Source: Armatimonadetes bacterium Uphvl-Ar1 (lineage in GTDB: Bacteria; Armatimonadota; Fimbriimonadia; Fimbriimonadales; Fimbriimonadaceae). Taken from it: DNA of 64,000 bases. Below the pieces are notes generated by a model. That model ran no database searches. It was not told the DNA's origin and saw only the letters and a list, made by a program, of their open reading frames with translations. Below, piece by piece: positions 4,200-58,687 of this stretch (position 1 is its first letter; every line of letters starts with the position of its first letter). The DNA is taken from positions 558,001 through 622,000 of the forward strand of contig CP021423.1 in NCBI GenBank assembly GCA_002162075.1, given 5' to 3'. A program made the translations under genes and the position numbers.

Positions 4200-4949
4200 A
4201 TGAAAATAAATCGAATGCTGACCGCTAGTGCGGTGTTATTGACGTTGGGCTCGGTTGCGAGTGCGCAATTTGAGTTGACCTCCCGCTATTCAAAGGTGAA
4301 CTACGATTACTTTGCGGGCTTTGCCAACCAATCGGAGAGCGTAAGCGACTTTTTGGTTGAGACGACTTTGGATGTTACGGATAGTACGGCGTTGGTGGGG
4401 TCGGAAGATAGTTCAGGATTTTATGTTCCTTCGGGGACGGCCTGGTCTGCAAATGGATCTTGGAATATTAGTCATCAGTATTCGTTGATTGGTAGCGCGG
4501 CATCGGCGACGAAGTTGACTGCTTCTGGTTCTTCAACTGTTTCGATCACTTCTTCGAATGCAACAGCCCAGGTAGCGTCTTCTTTGCCAGGAAGTGAATT
4601 CTCGATTGAGATAGCGCTTAACTCGGCTCAGCAGGTGCGATTTATGGGTTCTCACACTGCAGACGGGCCTTTGAACCAGACGACGGGGAACACTTTTGGC
4701 TATTTTTGGAACGGTTCGACTTGGCAAATATTTTTGGTGAAGCAAGTGAACACAAACTGGGATGATTTGTTGAATTTGGGAGCAGGTACATACCGATTTG
4801 AGACTTTTTCGATTGCTCAGGCAAATCAAAATGCGACCAAGAGTTCAAGCTGGGAGTACAGTATTGAGGCTGTACCGGAGCCAGGAACAATGATTGCTCT
4901 TGGAATTGGCGCGTTAGCAGTTGCGGCTCGCAAACGGAACAAGAACTAA
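4200..4949 (+). CDS. PEP-CTERM sorting domain protein
   Basis: 249 residues. A signal peptide ends near ASAQF (residue 21). The C-terminus is VPEPGTMIALGIGALAVAARKRNKN: the PEP-CTERM signature of a Pro-Glu-Pro motif, a transmembrane helix and a basic tail. Such proteins are processed by exosortase and end up on the cell surface or in the extracellular matrix. The middle is Ser/Thr/Asn-rich beta-type sequence without recognised domains. I chose ATG 4200 over the upstream in-frame start at 4161 because a GGAG Shine-Dalgarno site precedes it and the signal peptide then begins MKINRML. Own promoter upstream and own terminator downstream. Confidence 0.85.
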   Translation: MKINRMLTASAVLLTLGSVASAQFELTSRYSKVNYDYFAGFANQSESVSDFLVETTLDVTDSTALVGSEDSSGFYVPSGTAWSANGSWNISHQYSLIGSAASATKLTASGSSTVSITSSNATAQVASSLPGSEFSIEIALNSAQQVRFMGSHTADGPLNQTTGNTFGYFWNGSTWQIFLVKQVNTNWDDLLNLGAGTYRFETFSIAQANQNATKSSSWEYSIEAVPEPGTMIALGIGALAVAARKRNKN

Positions 4950-27515: not shown

Positions 27516-27712
27516 TTCTGTTCATCCTCCCACCAAGGCACTTCCCATCCGTCGTTGGTGAAGTATCTCGTTTGTGGTTCGTGGGCACAAGTAGCGTCAC
27601 AGCATCTTGGGCAAAGAATCTCGGCTACGTCGGCGCGTTTAGGGTCAGTCGCTTCTCTCTCTGCTTTTTTTTCTTTTAGACATCGAGGGCATCGAATCAG
27701 TATCTCACTCAT
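27512..27712 (-). CDS. Small zinc-ribbon-like protein
   Basis: 66 residues with CPRC at residues 8-11 and CPRC-CDATC near residues 34-41, the spacing of a small zinc ribbon. No more specific family. Coupled by 4-base overlap to the excisionase-like gene and by 8 bases to the XRE gene. Confidence 0.6.
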   Translation of the reverse strand: MSEILIRCPRCLKEKKAEREATDPKRADVAEILCPRCCDATCAHEPQTRYFTNDGWEVPWWEDEQK

Positions 27713-27962
27713 CGCCCCACCTCACGAACGTTACAACCCTCTCAAGTCCCAGCTTCTCAGCGACTGCAGTGGATATCTCTCGTCGGCCTTTCAGAATGTC
27801 GGACAAGTATTGCGGGGAAATACCAATTTGTTCTGCAACGGTCTTTTGGCTGGACTTTTGGCACTCCCGCATAATCAAATGAACAACATCGGATGGACGC
27901 AGTTGCACAAAGCCACCAGGGAGCGACATGGCTCGGCCAGGGTGCTCTTCAAATTTGGTCAT
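27705..27962 (-). CDS. XRE/HigA-like HTH regulator
   Basis: 85 residues. KTVAEQIGISPQYLSDILKGRREISTAVAEKLGL is a clear Cro/C1-type helix-turn-helix (residues about 40-73). Similar proteins occur as HigA antitoxins or phage regulators; no HigB-like toxin is seen next to it, so a regulatory role in the early operon is more likely. Overlaps both neighbours. Confidence 0.75.
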   Translation of the reverse strand: MTKFEEHPGRAMSLPGGFVQLRPSDVVHLIMRECQKSSQKTVAEQIGISPQYLSDILKGRREISTAVAEKLGLERVVTFVRWGDE

Positions 27963-28150
27963 TCCGAAAAGTCACCCCTTTCAATCATGTCCGCAAGTTG
28001 ATCAAGAATTGCGGTCGACCTTTCGTCGCGTCCGCTCTTCCTGGCATCCTCGCGACCTTGAACAGCCAGTAATCTAATGTTTGCTGCAATCTTTGACCGC
28101 TCTGCACGTTCAGCCAATAATTGAATTTCAGCTATTGATGCGGGAGTCAT
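27959..28150 (-). CDS. Small hypothetical early protein
   Basis: 63 residues, helical and charged (LLAERAERSKIAANIRLLAVQ). The ATG at 28150 is chosen because ATGA overlaps the stop of the upstream gene; a further in-frame start lies at 28171. Function unknown. Confidence 0.55.
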   Translation of the reverse strand: MTPASIAEIQLLAERAERSKIAANIRLLAVQGREDARKSGRDERSTAILDQLADMIERGDFSE

Positions 28151-28389
28151 TCCGAGTCGGCCTCCTCCCATTCCGCGATAACTGGCTGAACGATCAACTT
28201 AGCTCGGTCGGCATAGGTGGTTGTGCCTGCCCAAAACACTTCACCGGAGGAGCAAAACACGCAATTCGCATAGTCTGAATTCTCATATTCTGACTTAAAG
28301 CACAGATCACCTTCAAATACGAAATGACCAGGCGGGCAGTCGGCAAGAGTTGTGGGCCATGCGCATGGCTTTACGACTAGACGCTTCAT
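28147..28389 (-). CDS. Small cysteine-rich hypothetical protein
   Basis: 80 residues with Cys at about 9, 18, 30, 44 and 47, including CVFC, which could bind zinc. The start ATG overlaps the stop of the 24-residue frame at 28386 by 4 bases. Function unknown. Confidence 0.6.
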   Translation of the reverse strand: MKRLVVKPCAWPTTLADCPPGHFVFEGDLCFKSEYENSDYANCVFCSSGEVFWAGTTTYADRAKLIVQPVIAEWEEADSE

Positions 28390-28460
28390 TCCGAGTCAGC
28401 CTCCTTTTGTTGCTTGAACACGTCGTAGGCCAAGTTCAAAGGTTGGTTGAAGGTAATCAC
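28386..28460 (-). CDS. Possible 24-residue microprotein
   Basis: GTG start at 28460 overlapping the upstream stop (GTGA) and a TGA stop overlapping the next ATG (ATGA). Sequence MITFNQPLNLAYDVFKQQKE plus four residues. It exactly fills the gap between two coupled genes, and AAGGGG at its start could serve as a ribosome site. Existence is inferred from the overlaps only. Confidence 0.4.
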   Translation of the reverse strand: MITFNQPLNLAYDVFKQQKEADSE

Positions 28461-28594
28461 CCCTTCACCGGCTTGATCTCCAAATACAACCCTTTGTCCG
28501 GAAACACCGCTTTGACCCCATCGCTGGCATCTTCCACCAATTGGCGGACAAATTCGAGTTGGGTTTCGTTGAGGGTGATTGTGAGGGTTTTCAT
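28457..28594 (-). CDS. Small hypothetical early protein (45 residues)
   Basis: MKTLTITLNETQLEFVRQLV followed by EDASDGVKAVFPDKGLYLEI. ATG at 28594 overlaps the stop of the gene at 28591 by 4 bases; the stop overlaps the microprotein start. An amphipathic strand-helix pattern; no family recognised. Confidence 0.55.
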   Translation of the reverse strand: MKTLTITLNETQLEFVRQLVEDASDGVKAVFPDKGLYLEIKPVKG

Positions 28595-28863
28595 TGCTTC
28601 ACCTTGATCAAGTCACCATCAAGAACAAGGAAGAGGGGCAGTTCAAACAAGTTGATTAAAACGGTGGTTAACCCTTCGTCGTCGTAGTCAACCCATCCAT
28701 AGTCGGGGTTGTCATTCTGGACGATGTAGGTTGCATATCGCTCACCCTTTTGATTTACGCAGATCGCTACGGTGATCCTGTCCCCGCCCCAATCTGCAAT
28801 AACGGTTCCACTTTCCACCCCTTCCGCCGGGATGTCTTTAATGTTGATGATTTTTTCAGCCAT
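28591..28863 (-). CDS. Small hypothetical early protein
   Basis: 90 residues from ATG 28863 (MAEKIINIKDIPAEGV...). Beta-rich, acidic, with WVDYDDEGLTTVLINLFELP. The frame stays open upstream, but the upstream residues come from a structured non-coding stretch (28942-29004). AGAGA lies before the ATG. Function unknown. Confidence 0.55.
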   Translation of the reverse strand: MAEKIINIKDIPAEGVESGTVIADWGGDRITVAICVNQKGERYATYIVQNDNPDYGWVDYDDEGLTTVLINLFELPLFLVLDGDLIKVKQ

Positions 28864-28941
28864 GATTTTCTCTGCTAGTAAAGTTTTTGGGGGCCATTGC
28901 TGACCCCCTGGTTTTTTGGGTTTTGGGGTGAACGTAGAATG

Positions 28942-29004
28942 AGCCGGGGAGCGCGGACAAACACCAACGCGCTTGCTCCGGGGATGCACAGCCCCGCCCC
29001 GGCT
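28942..29004 (-). other. Structured intergenic element in the early operon
   Basis: Outer arms AGCCGGGG (28942-28949) and CCCCGGCT (28997-29004) enclose a second hairpin GAGCGCG / CGCGCTTGCTC. Just downstream on the minus strand, GGGGGTCA-GCAA-TGGCCCCC forms a stem with a GNRA loop. The 147-base gap between the genes at 29011 and 28863 is otherwise empty. Could be an attenuator, processing site or antitermination-type structure. Confidence 0.5.
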
Positions 29005-29010
29005 GATTCC

Positions 29011-29379
29011 TTAGCTCGCCTCCTCCTGTGGTGATTCCTTGACCGGTTGGTCAGAAGGTTGTTGACCATCCACATGGTCAAAGCGTTGATGATTGAGATA
29101 GTTGTAGAGCTCGGGCATTGCGGTTGCACCTGCTCCACAAGCTTGGACTTCGGAGTCCGAGTCCCAAATGGCTTGCATTGCATCAATAGAGGAAAAACCA
29201 AGCTCCACAGCGTCAGCAAGTGCCTTTTTCGCGCCGAGTAGTTCGGAGACAATTGCGTCAAACTTTGACGTCGCAACTAAGTAGTATTCGCCTGGTTCTG
29301 GCTGAAGATCCCAGCAGAGAATGTCCCCAGGCTCCAAATCGACAAGGCCATCTGGCAAGTAATGTTCCTGATCTGTCAC
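29011..29379 (-). CDS. Hypothetical early protein
   Basis: 122 residues from GTG 29379, which overlaps the upstream stop as GTGA; an ATG at 29424 would overlap the neighbour by 49 bases and is less likely. DLEPGDILCWDLQPEPGEYYLV is followed by a helical region and an acidic Gln/Pro-rich tail. No family recognised. Confidence 0.55.
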   Translation of the reverse strand: MTDQEHYLPDGLVDLEPGDILCWDLQPEPGEYYLVATSKFDAIVSELLGAKKALADAVELGFSSIDAMQAIWDSDSEVQACGAGATAMPELYNYLNHQRFDHVDGQQPSDQPVKESPQEEAS

Positions 29380-29606
29380 CGCACAAACCCCCAGATCACG
29401 AACGCTGTCGCCGCCACCAGGCAAACCGCCTGAACCGTGTGCCAGATCGTCCAGCTTGGGCAGTCGTCATCTTTCTTGATGGTCAAATCACCTGGTGCAT
29501 TGCTGAGGTCGGCCGCAATGGCTTTGGCTCGTTTTGCCGCCAAATCAACCTCGTTGCTGTCTGATTTGAACTGCTCGACATTCGGGTCGAATTCGCGGGG
29601 GAGCAT
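29376..29606 (-). CDS. Small membrane-anchored early protein
   Basis: 76 residues: charged N-terminus (KSDSNEVDLAAKRAKAIAAD) and one C-terminal membrane helix (VQAVCLVAATAFVIWGFV). A tail-anchored inner-membrane protein; role unknown. The ATG overlaps the MBL-fold stop by one base. Confidence 0.6.
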   Translation of the reverse strand: MLPREFDPNVEQFKSDSNEVDLAAKRAKAIAADLSNAPGDLTIKKDDDCPSWTIWHTVQAVCLVAATAFVIWGFVR

Positions 29607-30328
29607 CAGAACGGCACCTCATGTTTCCCGGCAATGTAAACCGGAACTCCCGTCTTCGCCGCAATCCGTTCTTTGAACATCCGCTCATCCGAGTTGCCGT
29701 CCGAGAGGTGAAGCAAATGGATCTCCTGCAAGGAGCTAAGGTCATTAGCGTCGAGAAACTTTTCCAGCGTTTCGAGGCTCATGTGATTAGTGCGAGTCCG
29801 GCTGTACCGGCGGGCATCCATCCCACCCCGAATCGTGTTGTCTCGCATGATCTCAACCGAGTGGTTGCATTCAATGAAGAGGTGAGTGAGTCCCGGGAAT
29901 TTGTTCCGGCTCCAAGCAGTGTCAGAGAGATAAAGGCAGGTTGCACCACCACCCTTGATCACATAGCCGACAGTGCCCGGGCAGTCATGCACACAATCGA
30001 CGGCCACAACCTGCCAATCACCAACTCTGAACTCCTTGTACGGGGTGATGATCTTTGAGCGATGCGTCCGGTGAGCTTTGAGGTGATCCCATGTTTCAAG
30101 CGTCGCGTAGCAGTTGACACCAGCGGCGAGGAGCCCTTTGAATCCCTTGACGTGATCGCCGTGACCGTGGGTAATCAGACAGCCATCAAGCTGAGTGACC
30201 TTATAGGCAAGCCCGCGCTGAATTTGATCGAAGCCGAGACCACAATCGAGGAGGAGAGAGTTGCCGCCGGATGACAGCAGATAGGAACATCCGGCAGAAC
30301 TTGAGGCAAGAGGCTTGAATGTGATCAA
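29606..30328 (-). CDS. MBL-fold metallohydrolase
   Basis: 240 residues. CLITHGHGDHVKG (residues about 51-63) is the HxHxDH metal site; LDCGLG and ECNHSVEIM and the late HLSDGNSDE support the fold. The branch resembles YycJ/WalJ-type phosphodiesterases. Between recT and small early genes with a 4-base overlap to recT, so it probably acts on DNA or nucleotides during phage recombination, but other hydrolase roles are possible. Confidence 0.8.
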   Translation of the reverse strand: MITFKPLASSSAGCSYLLSSGGNSLLLDCGLGFDQIQRGLAYKVTQLDGCLITHGHGDHVKGFKGLLAAGVNCYATLETWDHLKAHRTHRSKIITPYKEFRVGDWQVVAVDCVHDCPGTVGYVIKGGGATCLYLSDTAWSRNKFPGLTHLFIECNHSVEIMRDNTIRGGMDARRYSRTRTNHMSLETLEKFLDANDLSSLQEIHLLHLSDGNSDERMFKERIAAKTGVPVYIAGKHEVPF

Positions 30329-50074: not shown

Positions 50075-50238
50075 GGCCTGATAATTCCCGGTTTATTGTT
50101 GTCGCGGGACGTGGTGTTAATCGCGTTTCTTTTGTAAAGCCCCATTTGGTCTGAAATCTTTTGAAAATCCCGTTCACGCTTGGCTGACTTTTTCTCCTAC
50201 GCGATTCTCGATGCGTTCTGAGCCTCTTCGTAAGTCAT
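50071..50238 (-). pseudogene. Small moron frame interrupted by TAG
   Basis: From ATG 50238: MTYEEAQNASRIA, then TAG (50197-50199), then EKKSAKRERDFQKISDQMGL and on to IIRP, ending at 50071. The in-frame continuation is charged and coding-like. The start lies 6 bases after TACAAT in a repeated CTGATACAATAAC block. Probably inactivated by the stop, or read through. Confidence 0.4.
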
Positions 50239-50241
50239 GCT

Positions 50242-50254
50242 GTTATTGTATCAG
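50242..50254 (-). repeat. Promoter-bearing direct repeat, downstream copy
   Basis: GTTATTGTATCAG here and again at 50483-50495. On the minus strand it reads CTGATACAATAAC with a TACAAT -10 box; each copy is followed by three bases and an ATG. Confidence 0.6.
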
Positions 50255-50479
50255 CTTGCATGGGTAGTTGAACTTATAGTCGATTGGGCCTCCGTCGGAG
50301 ACTGTAAACAGTGGTGGTTTTGGATAAGGCGCAACCACAACAACCCAATGAGGTCTTTTTTCGCTTAATGTGCGGGCATCCTCAAAAGTAAATCCAAGAG
50401 ATTCAGCAAATGATTTGGTACATAAAATGGGTCGCCCCTTTGGAGTCCAAACTTTGACCATGTTGCGCGGAAGAGCCAT
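50243..50479 (-). CDS. Minus-strand moron protein in the late region
   Basis: 78 residues. VWTPKGRPILCTKSFAESLG and TFEDARTLSEKRPHWVVVVA; small, soluble, unknown. Its ATG at 50479 lies 6 bases after TACAAT in the upstream repeat, so its mRNA is probably leaderless and made in the lysogen. It points against the tail genes on both sides. Confidence 0.6.
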   Translation of the reverse strand: MALPRNMVKVWTPKGRPILCTKSFAESLGFTFEDARTLSEKRPHWVVVVAPYPKPPLFTVSDGGPIDYKFNYPCKLIQ

Positions 50480-50482
50480 TTC

Positions 50483-50495
50483 GTTATTGTATCAG
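50483..50495 (-). repeat. Promoter-bearing direct repeat, upstream copy
   Basis: Second copy of the 13-base block; on the minus strand TTGAGA (50512-50507) and TACAAT are 15 bases apart, and TACAAT lies 6 bases before ATG 50479. Confidence 0.6.
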
Positions 50496-50504
50496 AAAAA
50501 AGAA

Positions 50505-51329: not shown

Positions 51330-51488
51330 ATGAGTAGAGAACAGCAAAAAGAAGGATACGAAACCAAAGATATGCGCGGCGCATTGCAGGGTGGCTTTGG
51401 GGCTACTCGGTTTGATGCACCAAAAGATGAGCCGAGTCCGAAGAAGAAGGAGACCAAGGAAGTCAAACCGGAAGAGGCGGGTAGCTAA
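51330..51488 (+). CDS. Small hypothetical tail-region protein
   Basis: 52 residues, basic and flexible: MSREQQKEGYETKDMRGALQ followed by a Lys/Glu-rich tail. A good AAGGAG site precedes ATG 51330; its stop overlaps the next ATG (TAATG). Confidence 0.6.
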   Translation: MSREQQKEGYETKDMRGALQGGFGATRFDAPKDEPSPKKKETKEVKPEEAGS

Positions 51489-51919
51489 TGGCGGAAAAAG
51501 GTGAGGTGGTTCGTTCTCCGCTTGATGAGCTAATTGCACTGGCACCGAAGACTGAGGAATTTACGATTCCGATTGGGGACGAATCTCATCAGGTGCTTCG
51601 ATTTCGGCGTGAGCGCAACTTTGCAAAGATTAGGAAGGCCAAGCAAGTTGCAAGCGAAAAAGCGGGAGAGATTTATGATGTGCTGGAGCCAGGTCGGGAT
51701 AAAGGGGAAGCCAAAGACCCGATCATCCTGGAAGTCCTTTCCCAATGTTGCCTCATGGCTGATTTTTGTCTTGATGAAGGAGTTGATGCGTTCAAGTTCT
51801 ATGAGCTGAGTAAGGAGTTTGGAGCGATGTTCGGGATGATTAGCGACTTCTTTTCTGCAAAGCTCTCAATGGGTGAAGCGGAAGACCTCTCGAAAAAGCA
51901 GACTGACTCAAAAAACTAA
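51488..51919 (+). CDS. Tail assembly chaperone, short form (gpG-like)
   Basis: 143 residues: VLRFRRERNFAKIRKAKQVA and CLMADFCLDEGVDAFKFYEL, with a charged end SKKQTDSKN. Position between tail tube and tape measure is that of the lambda G gene. The stop TAA follows directly on a slippery A_AAA_AAC (51910-51916). Confidence 0.75.
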   Translation: MAEKGEVVRSPLDELIALAPKTEEFTIPIGDESHQVLRFRRERNFAKIRKAKQVASEKAGEIYDVLEPGRDKGEAKDPIILEVLSQCCLMADFCLDEGVDAFKFYELSKEFGAMFGMISDFFSAKLSMGEAEDLSKKQTDSKN

Positions 51920-52122
51920 TCAAGCGCGATCCGGTTCATGCGTGGTTGCTCCGGGTTGCGCGTCTCACCTACAAGTGCCACTATCTTGATCTTTCGGAAA
52001 ATCAGATTGGCCGATTGACCGACCTGGCGGCAGACATGGCTGAGGAAGCGGAGGAAATTAAGCGGCAGTCGAAGCGGCGGCAACGGGAGTCCGAGGTCGA
52101 AGCGGAAGCGGCGAGAGGTTAA
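51488..52122 (+). CDS. Tail assembly chaperone, frameshifted long form (gpGT-like)
   Basis: A -1 slip on A_AAA_AAC (51910-51916) changes the frame right before the TAA and adds 68 codons: LIKRDPVHAWLLRVARLTYK, CHYLDLSENQIGRLTDLAAD and an Arg/Glu-rich helix, ending at 52122. This gives a 211-residue fusion, as in the conserved G/GT arrangement of long-tailed phages, where the two forms bind the tape measure. No independent start codon serves the extension well. Confidence 0.75.
51910..51916 (+). promoter_or_regulatory. Slippery heptamer for -1 frameshifting
   Basis: A AAA AAC in the reading frame (TCA AAA AAC TAA), of the X_XXY_YYZ type. The stop codon follows at once. Confidence 0.75.
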
Positions 52123-52745
52123 GGGTAACGGGGGTCACCAGCAATCTTGGTCCCACTTATGATTGGCTCCCTGTGCCATTCGGGCTTGTAATGGAAATAA
52201 AATAGAATTGTTTGAGACTCTCCGGGGCTAAGCGTTTGAAGTCTTCTTGTTGTCGTCCATATTTTGCCTTGGGAACCATCCTCTCCAGGTGGAATTTCAT
52301 CAAAAGAAACAGTAATATCCGCTACGGTTTCGCTTCCATAATTGTGCAGCTTAACGAAAGTTGTTAGGTCGCCCCGTGTTTCTGTTGGCATTGTGCCAGG
52401 CGGATACTTTGAACCATGGGTGGTTCTTTTTACGTAAGGTGGCTCCCAGACAAGTGGCCAGTATTTATACTCAACGTCCGTTGGAAGCCCAAGGCTTACC
52501 AGCGTATCTTCAAATGGGTGTCGGGACGGTGTTGGTGTTGGGGGGTTGCTGGGTTCATCTTGCTGTACTAATGGGGGTGCGACTTGTTCTGCAGGAGTTG
52601 ATGATTGGGCTTTAGCAACAGGCGGAATCGAAGCGGATTGATGCTGCTCTGCAATCGGTGCAGCTGGTTCACTTTTACTGGGTGAACAAGAGGCTTGGAT
52701 CAAGCTCAAAAACAGGACACATGGAATGAAAATCCGCTTCATCAC
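52119..52745 (-). CDS. Lipoprotein moron (minus strand)
   Basis: 208 residues. A signal sequence MMKRIFIPCVLFLSLIQASC ends in a lipobox-like Cys20, followed by a Pro/Ser/Gln-rich linker (residues 21-75) and a beta-sandwich-like domain (TTFVKLHNYGSETVADITVS, SFDEIPPGEDG). Surface lipoproteins of prophages often exclude superinfecting phages; here that is inference. It has its own promoter at 52752-52780; GTG 52745 or ATG 52742 is the start. Converges on the tail chaperone with a 4-base overlap. Confidence 0.75.
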   Translation of the reverse strand: MMKRIFIPCVLFLSLIQASCSPSKSEPAAPIAEQHQSASIPPVAKAQSSTPAEQVAPPLVQQDEPSNPPTPTPSRHPFEDTLVSLGLPTDVEYKYWPLVWEPPYVKRTTHGSKYPPGTMPTETRGDLTTFVKLHNYGSETVADITVSFDEIPPGEDGSQGKIWTTTRRLQTLSPGESQTILFYFHYKPEWHREPIISGTKIAGDPRYP

Positions 52746-52751
52746 AGGAAA

Positions 52752-52794
52752 ATTATAGCAAAAAGTTGCGATCCGCGCAAATTGTGGCTATAAT
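52752..52794. promoter_or_regulatory. Interlocked divergent promoter pair
   Basis: Plus strand: TTGCGA (52766-52771), 17 bases, TATAAT (52789-52794). Minus strand: TTGCGC (52780-52775), 17 bases, TATAAT (52757-52752). The two -35 boxes lie inside one palindrome-like TTGCGATCCGCGCAA. The minus promoter starts at the lipoprotein GTG; the plus promoter starts near 52801. Confidence 0.8.
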
Positions 52795-52800
52795 CGTAAT

Positions 52801-52988
52801 TGCAACAACAGTTGAATATCGCGCAGTACGTGACGTGCTCACCATTTCCAAACCTCAGGCGGGATTGCGCCAGTTTGGTGCTGGGTAGTACCAGAAACCG
52901 TCCGTACACGCGGCTGTTGTTGCACTGGGAACCCCAGCACTGAACGTGAATGGCTCCCCAAAAAGGAAACTGAAATGCAACAACAGCC
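52801..52988 (+). promoter_or_regulatory. Structured 5' leader with mutually exclusive pairings at the start codon
   Basis: Segment TGCAACAACAG occurs at 52801-52811 (predicted RNA 5' end) and at 52976-52986 (within ATG CAA CAA CAG). Its complement CTGTTGTTGCA lies at 52914-52924; with GG before it, it makes 13 perfect pairs with 52976-52988. GTGCTGGG (52878-52885) can also pair with CCCAGCAC (52933-52940), or with CCAG at 52891-52894. A two-state switch is possible. Confidence 0.6.
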
Positions 52989-53370
52989 CTATAACCCTCT
53001 CGCCCTCGGTGGCGACGGAGTGTCCTTCGCTGGATTCATACTCGCCAGCACCTTTGCCCTCGATACGCTTGCCGATGATTTGGCGCATCATGTCAAAGAT
53101 CAAGTCCTGAAAGCAGGCAAGGGAGGAAAACGGGCGTGGCTCATTGACGTAACCTTGCGGGGCCCCTCGCGGGATGCGGTGTCAACTTTGCGGACGACGG
53201 TGGAATTCATTGGTCCGGAATCTGTGGAGCTTGACACCCATTTCTTTTTGAACAGTCTTTGCCATCGGCAGGAGGTCTCGCTCTCCATGCCGTTCGTGCC
53301 GAATGCCTGGTTTGTTCGGCTTGATGTTCATTCGCTCGATAACGTCATTGATAGTGAGGTAGCGGCATGA
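52975..53370 (+). CDS. Hypothetical accessory protein under the structured leader
   Basis: 131 residues: MQQQPYNPLALGGDGVSFAG, LIDVTLRGPSRDAVSTLRTT, then a beta-rich end. No family recognised. AAGGAAAC precedes the ATG, which lies inside the alternative stem. Its stop overlaps the antirepressor ATG by 4 bases. Confidence 0.6.
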   Translation: MQQQPYNPLALGGDGVSFAGFILASTFALDTLADDLAHHVKDQVLKAGKGGKRAWLIDVTLRGPSRDAVSTLRTTVEFIGPESVELDTHFFLNSLCHRQEVSLSMPFVPNAWFVRLDVHSLDNVIDSEVAA

Positions 53371-54104
53371 TCCCATTCACTTACAATTCCCTCACCGTCC
53401 GAACCCGCGTTGGTGATGATGGTGAGCCATGGTTCTGCTTGGCAGATGTTGGGGCGGTGCTTGAAATGAAAGACCCGACCAATTTCACTAAGTCCGACTG
53501 GTGCGACGATGAAGGGGTCGTAAAGTTTACGGAACCTACCCAAAGCGGTGTTCAGGACATGATTTTCATCAACGAACCCAACCTCTACGCGATGGTCATG
53601 CGATCAACCAAGAAGGAGGCCAAGGCGTTCAGCCGGTGGGTGACCCACGAAGTCCTTCCGGAGATTCGCAAAACCGGGAGCTATTCGGTCGAAGTCGCTC
53701 CACCATCCGGTGATCCGTTCCTTGCCATGTTGGACGGAATCAAAACTCTCTACATTCGCCAAAACGATGTGGAAAACCGAATTGGCAGACTCGAAGCCGA
53801 ACGGAAGGAGGCGCGGGAGCGGGCTTTGGCGTTGCCGGAACCAACTGAGCCGACACGGGAACTCTCCATGCGCGAGAAATGCCGTCAGGCGGTGGATGAA
53901 CTGGTAAGGCTCTCCGGAGTTTCCCACCAAGAGGCATGGCGGCGGATTTACTACGAATACAACTTCGTCGCCGGGGTGAATCTGACCAAGAGGGCGGAGG
54001 CGAAGAAACTTGCCAAGCTTGATTGGATTGACAAGTACGGGAGCATGGATTCTCTGTACGGAATCATCCGAAAGATGAGCCAGAACGCGGCGAAGTCGGC
54101 TTAG
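53367..54104 (+). CDS. Phage antirepressor with BRO-N domain
   Basis: 245 residues. BRO-N: RTRVGDDGEPWFCLADVGAV, FINEPNLYAMVMRSTKKEAK and AFSRWVTHEVLPEIRKTGSY (residues 10-110). Then a short coiled coil (VENRIGRLEAERKEARERAL) and a C-terminal helical domain. Such proteins bind repressors or DNA and can trigger induction. It lies in the moron island of the late region, far from the immunity region. Confidence 0.88.
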   Translation: MIPFTYNSLTVRTRVGDDGEPWFCLADVGAVLEMKDPTNFTKSDWCDDEGVVKFTEPTQSGVQDMIFINEPNLYAMVMRSTKKEAKAFSRWVTHEVLPEIRKTGSYSVEVAPPSGDPFLAMLDGIKTLYIRQNDVENRIGRLEAERKEARERALALPEPTEPTRELSMREKCRQAVDELVRLSGVSHQEAWRRIYYEYNFVAGVNLTKRAEAKKLAKLDWIDKYGSMDSLYGIIRKMSQNAAKSA

Positions 54105-54601: not shown

Positions 54602-56347
54602 ATGGCAATTGGCCCGCTCGACGAACTCAGAACAAGGCTCACGCTTGACGGGAATTTCAAGAAGGAGGCGGACGAAGCAAAAAAAGCCGCTGAAAAACTC
54701 TCGAATGAGCTAGAAAACCTAGAAGATACTGCCAATGCAGTCGAAGAGGCCAACGGCAAGATGGGTGTGATGATGAAGAACGCGATGATTAACGCGGTTT
54801 CATTCAGCCCGGTTCTGGGGCAACTTGCAACTTCGGCAGCTCAGGCCTCGGTGGCAATTGGGACAAATTTGGGAATTGCGCTCTCAAATACGGTGACATT
54901 TCTTACTTCGCCAGTTGGGATTGCGGCTGGTGCAACCATCGCTGCGGCGGCAATGATGGCAATGGCATCTGCTGGAAGTTACCTTGGTGGGGTCATGAGT
55001 GGGCTTTTAACGACGTTTGCGGCCCTTGCTCCAACTATCGCAACACTCGCCGCTACAATCGGTGGGCCACTCCTTGCAATTCCGTTTATGAACGCGGCAA
55101 AGGAAATGGATCGGTACGAGCGGCAATTTGCGGCAATCTTTGGGGGCTCGAAGCAAGGAAAACAAGCTGCTGGGGCGATGCAACAGTATGGACTCAAATC
55201 TTCAATTGACCAATTGCCACTTGCGGGAATGATTAAAACACTTGGTCTCAGCGGGCTAGACGTGAATCGTTACCTGCCTATGATGGAGACATTTTCGTTT
55301 CTTGGTCGTGGTGATGCAAGCCAGAACGCGGATGATGTTTCTTCCATCATTCGTCGGCTGATGGGTGGACAAACTTCGGACGCTCTTGGGCCTGATGGGG
55401 TTGGTCGGCTCGGGATTAACAAAAAGATGCTTGAAATGTACGGTGCATCTTTTGACAGTCAAGGAAAATTTCTCGGTGACACCCAGGATGCTTTGGATGT
55501 ACTTGAAAAGCTTTCCAAGGACTCTCCGATGCTGAAAGACTTGAAAGCAGTAATGGAGGCATCTGTTGACACCAGATGGTCAAACGTGATGGACGCTATT
55601 CGGGCTGCAATCACAGATTTTGGAAAGACGATCAAGGATTCGGCCCTTCCAGTCTTTGAGAAAGTTGCGGAATGGCTTCGCAACCTTACAAATAACGGCA
55701 CGATAACGAAGCTGGCGGAAAAGATGGGGAACATGATTGGCGATCCAGAAAAGTTAAAGCCCCTGGTTGCAGGGATTTTGACTTTTTTGGAGAAACTTCC
55801 GGCAATTGCAAATTTGGCAGTGCAGATGGTTCAAGAGATCGCACTTGCGATGGACAATGTGATTAAACGGGCCGTGAATTTTATGGGTTCACTGGCTGGC
55901 CCATTAGGTAAGTGGTGGCTTGGTGAGAAGTACAAGGAGGGAATGGCGGGCATAGATGGTGTCGCGGATATTGGAAAAGCGTTCTTCAGCGAAACCGGAT
56001 CATTTGGAGTGACCTTTAAGAAAAACCTTGACCTGCTCAACACCCCAGGGGCTCCAAAAGACAGTGCATTCCCCGCTTCTCAGCAAGCCCCAACCGACCC
56101 TGACGTCGTGAAGACTCAAGAATTGCTCGCGGGTATCGAAAACAACACCCGTCAAATGGTGGAAGCTCAGCGGCTTATCCTCGGTGGCGGCGAACTCGGT
56201 CAGCAAGGAATTACGGCAACAAGTGTCTTTGGTCGCAAGAGTAGCGGCGGCGGCCGTCGCGGTGGATTTGTCGGTGATCGGCTCAGCTCAGTGCTCATGG
56301 ACATCTTTGATGAAATGATCGAGGGTGAGCGGCGGGCTATGGCGTAA
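54602..56347 (+). CDS. Tail tape measure protein
   Basis: 581 residues. N-terminal coiled coil (residues 15-60), then Ala/Gly-rich hydrophobic stretches (AAGATIAAAAMMAMASAGSY, TFAALAPTIATLAATIGGPL), a helical middle and an IENNTRQMVEAQRLILGGGE segment near the end. Sets tail length and helps DNA ejection. Short for the class. Confidence 0.82.
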   Translation: MAIGPLDELRTRLTLDGNFKKEADEAKKAAEKLSNELENLEDTANAVEEANGKMGVMMKNAMINAVSFSPVLGQLATSAAQASVAIGTNLGIALSNTVTFLTSPVGIAAGATIAAAAMMAMASAGSYLGGVMSGLLTTFAALAPTIATLAATIGGPLLAIPFMNAAKEMDRYERQFAAIFGGSKQGKQAAGAMQQYGLKSSIDQLPLAGMIKTLGLSGLDVNRYLPMMETFSFLGRGDASQNADDVSSIIRRLMGGQTSDALGPDGVGRLGINKKMLEMYGASFDSQGKFLGDTQDALDVLEKLSKDSPMLKDLKAVMEASVDTRWSNVMDAIRAAITDFGKTIKDSALPVFEKVAEWLRNLTNNGTITKLAEKMGNMIGDPEKLKPLVAGILTFLEKLPAIANLAVQMVQEIALAMDNVIKRAVNFMGSLAGPLGKWWLGEKYKEGMAGIDGVADIGKAFFSETGSFGVTFKKNLDLLNTPGAPKDSAFPASQQAPTDPDVVKTQELLAGIENNTRQMVEAQRLILGGGELGQQGITATSVFGRKSSGGGRRGGFVGDRLSSVLMDIFDEMIEGERRAMA

Positions 56348-56360: not shown

Positions 56361-56365
56361 AGTTG

Positions 56366-58687
56366 ATGCACCCCATCATCTTGACGGCTGACCATGCCCA
56401 AAAACGGATTGGACGCGACCGTCTGACCGTTTTGGCGGAAGGATCGTACAAGGCGGAGCGGGGCGGTCGGCAAACTGGCTGGGATTTGATCAACTCCGAG
56501 AACATCTGGCAAGACCGGGTGACATATACAGCGATGCTGACCCCAGGGCCACAAAAGGCCAACTGGGAAACGACAAACACCGGGATTACCTCCAAATATG
56601 CGCTTGCTGATCTGACATTTTCGGCATCTAGTGGATGGAGAGACACGCCAACAGCGGACGGGGTTGGATGGATTCAAAAGCCTGACTGTTCGGATGATGT
56701 GATTTACACCCCGACTCTCGCGAACATCAACCAGGGGATTTACGTTGCTCGAATCGTTCTCCAGGCTCAAAGCCGTTATGTGCTTTTTGAGTGCGGATGG
56801 GCTGATGATGCGACGCTTCAAGTTGGATTTCGTGTGTGGTCGGATGGCGAAGTTGAGGTTTGGAAGGGTGAGGTGCAGGTGGGGAGCGGGAAAGTCAGTG
56901 GAAGCCAAACAAATGACACGCTGAAGGATTCCTCTCATCTAGGAGTGATGTTTTTGCCGTTTCGCCGCCGGGAGGTTTTGGTCTACTCCAATCAAGGGGA
57001 TGGATTCTCTCACCTCTTTACCGATTTGCCGGAAGATGGCACCGTCCAGGAAATAACGCCGGCCACAAAGTTCTGGGTTTTGATTCCTTCCGGAACTGCA
57101 ACGGTGCAAATTGCGCGCATTCAATTCGAGTCAACGGGGACGCTTTATTCGACGAAGCGGTATTTTGCTGATCCACCACCGAGTCCGGCTCCAACACTGA
57201 TCACCGAGGCGATTTTCGATGGTGCTGGTTATGGTTCAGCGGCGGCGACGGTCACGCTGGAAGAGTCAAACCTTAGCGGCGCATTTGCTCCAAATGGGAT
57301 CAAAGACAATTGCCGTCTGAAAGTGGCTTTGAGCGGTGGGCCAAGCGCGTCACCGTTTGTTTACGGCGCGTTTGCCGGATATGAGCAGGAAATTCTGGAC
57401 ACCGATGATAGTGAAGCGGCGGTCATCACTTGGCAGGAGCTTTCTTGGTCGGTTCCGGATTCACCTTCTGGGGCCAAGTTTTCTGTTACTTCTTGGGACC
57501 CCGAAAACTCGGGCATTAACCGCTTTTCTCTGATCAACAACCGCCCAATCGAAGTAGCGATCAACTCCAAAGTTGTTGTGGATGGACGTGGCGGAGAGCC
57601 AAAGATTCAGCGTGGCCGGATTGATGATCTTGATGTTTTGACTCTCGATATTCACGATGCGTGGAAAGCTTTGGAGCATTATCGGTTCCAGGAGCGACTG
57701 CCCCTCGATGGTCTTTCTTGGAAAGCGGCGGTTGAGTTGATGTTTTTGCTTGCCGGATTTGAATCGTCACAACTTGATGTTGAAGACCCTGGCCTGACTC
57801 TTGGACTTGCAAGCTCCCCAACGGCGGGAGAATGGTCGGTTTTGATTCAAGAGGGCGACACGGCGGCAGAGTGGGTGGAGCGTCTTTTTGAGGGGTTTGC
57901 TGGGGATTGGTTTTATGGGATTCAGCCCCAGGCAAGCGGATTACCGAAGTTCTTTGCCAGTTCTCCGGCGTCGCTTTCCGATAGCGTGGAGGTGGAGTTC
58001 TTTCGGGACCGAGGCGATGCAGTTGACCAGCTTGTGCTTGAGGGGATGAGCGCGGGAGACGCTGAGCGTTATGCCCACATGCGGCTGATTCAAAACTACT
58101 CGGAGACGCGAATTGAGCCAGAGGCAACGGATATTCGGGTGACGGGGATTGACATTAGGTCAAACAAGTACCTGCAAGCCAAATACATCGACGCAAACGC
58201 GCAAGACCCGGCGGTTGCTCCGTCGCTGCGGCAAGACAATTGGATGGGTGAGCGACTTCGCTTTGGCTATTTGGAGCCGATGCTGACTACACAGGATTTG
58301 GTTGATAGTGCTGCTGCAACGCTTGGAGATCGGATTACCAGGGTTCGAACATTGATTGACATACAAACGCATTTGGCGATCAAGAGCAACGGGGTTCCTC
58401 TTTGGCGCGGCGGAGTGTTTCGGATTGATGGGGATAAAAAGTACCGGGTTCGGAGCTTTAACGGCAGCTCGGTCAAGGATGTGGTGAGTGGAGGAAGTGG
58501 GCTTGAGCTTTCGATGTGGCGACCAACGACGTACACCGGGGAATTGATTGATGCTAATGCACCATGGGCGGTTTCGACCGGGGCCGTAGGAAGCCTTTTG
58601 ATTGGTCGAAATCAGTTGAAGCGGCTGGCGGTGAAGGGTTCACGGTTCCGTGATTTGTTTAATGGATTGGTGAGGCTCGATACCTGA
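56366..58687 (+). CDS. Large tail protein, probable tail tip/hub
   Basis: 773 residues. The N-terminal 260 residues are beta-sandwich-like (GIYVARIVLQAQSRYVLFEC), the middle holds FDGAGYGSAAATVTLEESNL, and the C-terminal part (DTAAEWVERLFEGFAGDWFY, VRTLIDIQTHLAIKSNGVPL) resembles tail hub (gp27-like) proteins. The place after the tape measure fits distal tail or hub protein. Stop overlaps the next ATG by one base. Confidence 0.6.
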   Translation: MHPIILTADHAQKRIGRDRLTVLAEGSYKAERGGRQTGWDLINSENIWQDRVTYTAMLTPGPQKANWETTNTGITSKYALADLTFSASSGWRDTPTADGVGWIQKPDCSDDVIYTPTLANINQGIYVARIVLQAQSRYVLFECGWADDATLQVGFRVWSDGEVEVWKGEVQVGSGKVSGSQTNDTLKDSSHLGVMFLPFRRREVLVYSNQGDGFSHLFTDLPEDGTVQEITPATKFWVLIPSGTATVQIARIQFESTGTLYSTKRYFADPPPSPAPTLITEAIFDGAGYGSAAATVTLEESNLSGAFAPNGIKDNCRLKVALSGGPSASPFVYGAFAGYEQEILDTDDSEAAVITWQELSWSVPDSPSGAKFSVTSWDPENSGINRFSLINNRPIEVAINSKVVVDGRGGEPKIQRGRIDDLDVLTLDIHDAWKALEHYRFQERLPLDGLSWKAAVELMFLLAGFESSQLDVEDPGLTLGLASSPTAGEWSVLIQEGDTAAEWVERLFEGFAGDWFYGIQPQASGLPKFFASSPASLSDSVEVEFFRDRGDAVDQLVLEGMSAGDAERYAHMRLIQNYSETRIEPEATDIRVTGIDIRSNKYLQAKYIDANAQDPAVAPSLRQDNWMGERLRFGYLEPMLTTQDLVDSAAATLGDRITRVRTLIDIQTHLAIKSNGVPLWRGGVFRIDGDKKYRVRSFNGSSVKDVVSGGSGLELSMWRPTTYTGELIDANAPWAVSTGAVGSLLIGRNQLKRLAVKGSRFRDLFNGLVRLDT

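Follow-up and report, generated by a model that had tools for sequence, protein, structure and literature searches.

RNA-controlled phage antirepressors are known from a handful of enterobacterial phages, represented by c4 of P1/P7, N15, isrK and sar of P22. The immI region of P1/P7 has its own promoter, upstream target copies (a1, b1), antisense segments (a′, b′) and further target copies at a translation start (a2, b2), arranged in P1 in the order a1b1–c4–a2b2–icd–ant. In Salmonella Gifsy-1, the isrK–orf45–anrP leader has two structures, of −85.66 (silent) and −84.21 kcal/mol (translated), and orf45 is translationally coupled to the antirepressor AnrP (PMC4825925). The immunity region of satellite phage P4, seqA–CI RNA (seqB)–seqC, also contains an antisense segment flanked by two complementary copies (PMC4825925), and in the immI region of P22 (Arc/Mnt/ant) the sar RNA holds the antirepressor down by pairing at translation initiation (PMC12197685). 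The listed range of C4 RNAs covers only Proteobacteria and their phages (PMC2864571), whereas the prophage described here lies outside the phages of Proteobacteria.

The window, i.e., the whole 64-kb stretch of DNA that was analysed, represents a prophage within a 2.99-Mb single-contig genome. Upstream of a gene for a Bro-N antirepressor, its leader has the same +/−/+ layout as P1 immI: an antisense segment (x′) stands between two target copies (x1 and x2), the second of which is located at the translation start of the small first cistron, ORF131 (Table 1). The ORF131 stop overlaps the Bro-N start by 4 bp (ATGA, 53367–53370), exactly as icd overlaps ant1 by 4 bp in P1. The spacing is also similar, with 111+72 nt for the b triple of P1 and 113+62 nt in the window, and the divergent sim genes and the location of P1 immI among tail genes are paralleled by a divergent lipoprotein gene between tail genes. 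As a control, the scan for such triples recovers the known ones of P1, CTGTCAA at 4256/4394/4424 and CACTAAC at 4270/4381/4453. The two systems differ in that the window has one 11-nt triple over the start codon, whereas P1 has two of 7–8 nt around the ribosome-binding site. A second antisense segment of the a′/b′ type is absent, as only one +/−/+ triple of at least 7 nt is found within the leader and the y set of segments has another topology. Moreover, the antirepressor here is of the Bro-N type whereas P1 Ant1 has KilAC only, and BLASTP finds no homology between the Bro-N antirepressor and P1 Ant.

Table 1. Features of the leader region and its neighbouring genes (positions in the window)
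Feature	Position	Strand	Remarks
Divergent predicted lipoprotein gene	52119..52745	−	same inserted cassette; sequence shows a signal peptide and a lipobox; no family match
43-bp near-palindrome	52752..52794		16/19 arm matches; contains the leader promoter and an overlapping divergent promoter
Predicted sigma-70-type promoter of leader RNA	52766..52794	+	TTGCGA, 17-nt spacer, TATAAT
x1, 5′ decoy copy	52801..52811	+	TGCAACAACAG; predicted +1; pairing with x′ would leave the start codon open
P2, 5′ strand	52820..52823	+	partner 52909–52912; stacks directly on x1:x′
y1	52873..52885	+	13 pairs with y2 (52933–52945); crosses both x helices
x′, antisense segment	52912..52924	+	partner either x1 or x2
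Local hairpin CUGGG-AAC-CCCAG	52925..52937	+	3′ strand common with y2
y2	52933..52945	+	3′ strand common to y1:y2 and the local hairpin
Shine-Dalgarno-like AAGGA	52963..52967	+	7 nt before ATG; in the loop when x′:x2 pairs
ORF131, small first cistron	52975..53370	+	icd/orf45-like position; no family match
x2, start-codon segment	52976..52988	+	ATG base 2 to codon 5; pairing with x′ would hide the start
Bro-N antirepressor	53367..54104	+	Pfam Bro-N 1.5e-19; phrog_130 anti-repressor Ant 1.1e-40

An earlier note on this DNA had claimed that one leader segment can pair either with the start-codon region or with the predicted RNA 5′ end, the two pairings excluding each other, and this holds to the letter. 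The x′ segment, GGCTGTTGTTGCA, is the perfect reverse complement of TGCAACAACAGCC at x2 (13/13), its part 52914–52924 is equally the perfect reverse complement of x1 (11/11), and because these 11 nt are common to both pairings only one can form at a time. With two G-U pairs, x1:x′ extends to 14 pairs (52801–52814/52911–52924). The 11-mer stands at 52801 (+), 52914 (−) and 52976 (+), and the third copy (52976–52986) overlaps ATG 52975, beginning on its base 2. Such an arrangement is rare by every count made: the 13-nt perfect inverted repeat arises in 2/3000 dinucleotide shuffles of the region, the full triple in 0/3000, and any +/−/+ triple of at least 9 nt in 0/5000 shuffles; a scan of the 64-kb window finds no other +/−/+ triple of at least 9 nt, and the 2.99-Mb genome has six copies of the 11-mer, of which three fall within these 186 bp. 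We consider it very likely that the three segments form a selected RNA switch. Template switching can create short perfect inverted repeats, and the triple could in principle be such a mutational by-product, or a chance event, with no function; given the shuffles and, above all, a homologous triple carrying six concerted changes (below), we regard this as highly improbable.

ORF131 has no findable relative, so the comparative search was run with the antirepressor. Its closest relative, at 55% identity over 242 aa, is encoded on an IMG/VR contig (L043); a second contig, L044, is the same DNA, which leaves one independent homologue. A blind +/−/+ scan of all loci put forward triples in both contigs, and a triple of at least 8 nt over the start codon was found only in L043 and its duplicate among the 81 Bro-N loci scanned upstream. 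The L043 word, TGCAAACCACA, stands at 1936 (+), 2053 (−) and 2107 (+), with the ATG at 2106, so that the third copy again begins on base 2 of the ATG; the start-to-start spacing is 117+54 nt in L043 versus 113+62 nt in the window. As the MAFFT alignment of the two leaders is wrong at x1 and x2, pairs were compared at anchor positions, which the scan had located separately in the window and in L043. In this one close homologue, 6/11 positions have changed together in all three segments: six of the 11 pairs are compensatory and none is broken in x1:x′, and the same counts apply to x′:x2. Because the changes were made in concert in all three copies, both alternative helices survive. A homologue that keeps the coding sequence and loses the complementarity had been named in the earlier note as evidence against its reading, and L043 is not such a case.

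The remaining helices are conserved as well. Three of the four P2 pairs are compensated in L043 at the same place, and y1:y2 keeps 12/13 pairs, with one compensatory and three one-sided changes; positions 52882, 52936 and 52926, which lie in y1, y2 and the local hairpin, respectively, have changed together in all three strands. Three-strand covariation of this kind, drawn here from one independent comparison of predicted leaders, is hard to explain without RNA pairing. It also bears on the proposal that the three 11-mers are DNA operators bound by a repressor rather than RNA pairing segments. In its favour, a promoter is close to the three copies, sets of operators are frequent in phages, and the C1 operators of P1 are asymmetric; however, other promoters of the prophage carry no further copies, the +/−/+ order with the first copy exactly at +1 and the third exactly on ATG base 2 recurs in both phages, and P2, y1:y2 and the local hairpin show the covariation of RNA helices. 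We therefore consider DNA operators very unlikely. As a separate observation, two inner segments of the L043 leader (1986–1994 and 2038–2044; UUCAUUCCU and UCAUUCC) are complementary to the Shine-Dalgarno region at 2096–2104, AGGAAUGAA; the window counterparts are weak (CAUUUC/GAAAUG).

The predicted RNA 5′ end, which the earlier note had placed at the first base of x1, is based on the promoter match TTGCGA-17-TATAAT. By itself, this match is no better than chance; L043, with TTGACT-17-TATTGT at the same distance to its first copy, speaks for it. The end of the −10 box lies 7 nt from x1 both in the window and in L043, and the predicted transcription start of L043 is the first base of its 5′ segment; a start downstream of that segment, which would have told against the switch, is thus not what the homologue indicates. 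Attenuation by a leader peptide was also considered, in which translation of a 47-codon frame from TTG 52800 would open the stem. That frame spans the predicted transcription start to 52943 and places Leu-Leu-Leu codons at x′; however, its UUG start has no Shine-Dalgarno sequence and the equivalent L043 frame ends after six codons, so that this reading is largely refuted and we give it next to no chance. The near-palindrome that contains the leader promoter is not matched in any of 300 shuffles (0/300) and was not seen in L043. On its minus strand it holds a divergent promoter, TTGCGC-17-TATAAT, whose predicted start (~52745) coincides with the first codon of the lipoprotein gene, which suggests that the lipoprotein mRNA may be leaderless.

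In the 210-nt leader, x1:x′, x′:x2 and y1:y2 are the three strongest helices, with crude scores of 33, 31 and 30 against 18 for the next. The full leader folds to computed energies of −69.2 kcal/mol for the x1:x′ state and −69.3 for the x′:x2 state; only one of these two near-isoenergetic, exclusive structures leaves the first cistron's start accessible, an arrangement of the kind described for isrK. When the leader was folded with a shortened 5′ end, loss of at least 3 nt shifted it to 0.99–0.999 start-hiding state. L043 is likewise bistable (−67.0 vs −64.9), and removal of two 5′ nucleotides takes it to ~0.99 hidden state. In the growing RNA, by contrast with the finished leader, x1:x′ is the sole state until x2 is complete, all truncations to 52980 folding in this way. 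The second pair of alternative stems that the earlier note had seen inside the leader is present as well: CCCAG at 52933–52937 pairs with CUGGG either at 52925–52929 or at 52881–52885. Because the y1:y2 helix is conserved, crosses the x helices and lies beyond nested folding, the two-state picture is incomplete.

The 5′ domain, 52801–52924, is closed and unusually stable (z −3.5; −2.5 without x), as is that of L043 (z −4.3). In translational riboswitches, the 3′ strand of the stem closing a 5′ domain also pairs alternatively with the translation start, and the leader could be read as a ligand riboswitch in which an aptamer (52812–52913) is closed by x1:x′ as its P1 stem and the ligand keeps the start codon open. 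Exchange of a P1 strand with the expression platform is a classic design, and the inner domain is stable even without x, at the z score just given. However, the leader matches no Rfam riboswitch even at E 10, it has no conserved aptamer, and the inner domain is little conserved beyond GGG(U/A)AGUACC and the y strands and folds differently in the two homologues, which is not how aptamers behave. The regulated genes, moreover, form a prophage antirepressor operon, and we judge a ligand riboswitch very unlikely.

Judged by its likeness to P1 immI and isrK, the leader most likely sets ORF131 translation and, by coupling, that of the Bro-N antirepressor. The proposal of the earlier note, a small riboregulator over the start codon of an antirepressor-coupled gene, gains support from the near-equal folds, the ATGA overlap and the covariation in L043, and we think it probable that the leader controls access to the ORF131 start and, through it, the antirepressor. 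In such a mechanism, 52795–52990 would control a phage secondary-immunity operon with a transcript start at ~52801, x1 occupying +1 to +11, x′ +112 to +124, and x2 lying over the ORF131 start. Pairing of x′ with x1 would leave the start codon open, whereas pairing with x2 would form a 13-bp stem that buries the AUG and codons 2–5. As the two states have almost equal energies, small events may decide between them, and these would be the order of synthesis (x1:x′ being able to form first), a 5′ end shortened by at least 3 nt, processing, or the action of another RNA. Ribosomes coming from ORF131 would pass via the ATGA overlap into the Bro-N gene, and the switch would set the level of the antirepressor and, through its presumed target, lysogeny or induction, in a working mode like that of c4–icd–ant of P1 and isrK–orf45–anrP of Gifsy-1.

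A true c4/IsrK mode, which is a variant of the start-codon switch, we hold to be somewhat less likely than not. In it a short RNA, arising by a cut or by termination within the leader, would act in trans on further mRNA copies, with processed x′ as a c4-like repressor or x1 as an IsrK-like activator, and confer phage-specific immunity. The topology is the same as in P1, and the specificity letters differ between the two related phages, just as P1 and P7 differ in their a′ letters (PMC5320573). On the other hand, the leader has no terminator, known processing site or Rfam-like C4 core, and in folded leader-only RNAs x1 takes up the whole of x′; trans action of x′ would thus need cleavage between x1 and P2. 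The start-codon switch resembles isrK in its near-equal exclusive leader structures, one of them silent, and in the small first ORF before the antirepressor, yet it also departs from the described systems: IsrK is a trans-acting RNA with a terminator at its end, whereas no terminator is seen in the window leader, and the pairing involves the 3′ end of orf45 in isrK but the start codon here. The likeness to P4, whose CI RNA acts by premature transcription termination, is one of description, and P22 sar differs in being a separate antisense transcript.

Covariance models do not place the leader in any of the families compared, and it shows no kinship in sequence with the P1 RNA. In 52700–53060, Rfam models RF01695 (C4), RF03163 (c4-a1b1) and RF01394 (isrK) give no match at E up to 10, while the P1 control scores above threshold with the first two (68.8 and 51.0 bits, respectively) and reaches a sub-threshold 35.1 bits with the third; L043 reaches a sub-threshold 23.5 bits with the C4 model, on the opposite strand only. 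We file it as a variant of the known kind of leader RNA that controls phage antirepressor operons, and not with the C4 RNAs. It might belong to a lineage of its own among phage immunity RNA switches, with no sequence relationship to C4/isrK, in which one short word, used at +1, as antisense and on the start codon, provides both control and immunity specificity; between phages this word would be exchanged as a whole, and the precise 5′ end of the RNA, or fragments of it acting in trans, would set the state. We lean slightly against this reading. The logic of the enterobacterial phages appears here in a prophage whose control RNA escapes all covariance models. The lack of a covariance-model match, together with pairing words that turn over as a unit, suggests that sequence-based searches miss such switches, which may be common. 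A scannable signature is nevertheless at hand, consisting of a word at +1, inverted in mid-leader, and repeated over the start codon of a small ORF that precedes an antirepressor gene; it recovers P1 too. The concerted change of three segments, in turn, makes heteroimmunity by word replacement directly testable.

Searches with the leader sequence gave little beyond the window itself. BLAST with the leader DNA against relatives and phages returned only self, and a single-sequence covariance model run on 291 genomes found only self above chance, its three matches with E 0.03–0.07 being the chance expectation. When viral and genome collections were scanned for the exact word pattern, four unrelated matches turned up in 257 Gb, about the number expected by chance; the approach was useless in hindsight because the word changes. 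No start-codon triple was found in the Bro-N loci of the phylum (L022, L023 and L024) or in 27 further viral loci. Two other candidate identities were rejected: a retron msr-msd with a1/a2 arms, as the neighbouring ORFs include no reverse transcriptase, and MITE or transposon ends, as there is neither a target duplication nor a second genomic copy.

A more distant relative of the cassette is carried by Synechococcus phage Sc-Yong805-2 (OR075997.1; L042, L161), which has an antirepressor of 41% identity and a 132-aa ORF. Its cassette contains no triple of at least 7 nt and has an Arc-like repressor gene divergent to the antirepressor operon instead. P22, with its Arc-type protein control, is presumably closer in this respect to the Synechococcus phage cassette. 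As a homologue that might keep the gene and lose the complementarity, this phage bears on the earlier note only partially: the triple is absent, and the 132-aa ORF cannot be recognised as the coding sequence of ORF131. Since Sc-Yong805-2 does without the triple, the switch is not required by every such cassette, and RNA control would be one of several ways.

The codon-position GC of ORF131 resembles that of the adjoining genes. No homologues were found in viral contigs, phages, GTDB genomes, 150 relatives or 290 genomes of the phylum, and its AlphaFold model is weak (mean pLDDT 60), with uninformative Foldseek matches. In L043, the corresponding ORF (2106–2504) is 132 codons long, and its stop and the start of the antirepressor gene overlap in GTGA. 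The ORFs preceding the three related Bro-N antirepressors are 131 (window), 132 (L043) and 132 codons (L042, 2588–2986) long, all overlap the antirepressor gene, and no similarity is detectable among the three (52975–53370 in the window); this may reflect either extreme divergence or replacement at constant length.

The cassette, from 52119 to ~54104, lies between presumed tail-assembly-chaperone frames (51488–52122) and a tape-measure-like gene (54602–56347); in a related prophage (L018), the chaperone frames and the tape-measure-like gene are only 200 nt apart. The frames 51488–51919 and ~51919–52122, preceding the tape-measure gene, look like a frameshift-made tail-assembly chaperone. Between two other tail genes, a gene-poor stretch (50080–50500) with a minus-strand 78-aa ORF (50243–50479) looks like another small inserted cassette. 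In a genome of the same genus (G005), the region L017 6055–8300 holds remnants of this phage, namely a piece from the C-terminal part of the tape measure and the N-terminal 124 aa of the 774-aa protein; they lie downstream of a ribosomal protein operon and represent a decayed prophage. In the tail region of Sc-Yong805-2, the product of 27524–29866 is 39.5% identical to the window protein encoded at 56363–58687, and sharing of a tail-region protein as well as the antirepressor cassette points to an unexpected cross-phylum kinship between this cyanophage and the prophage.
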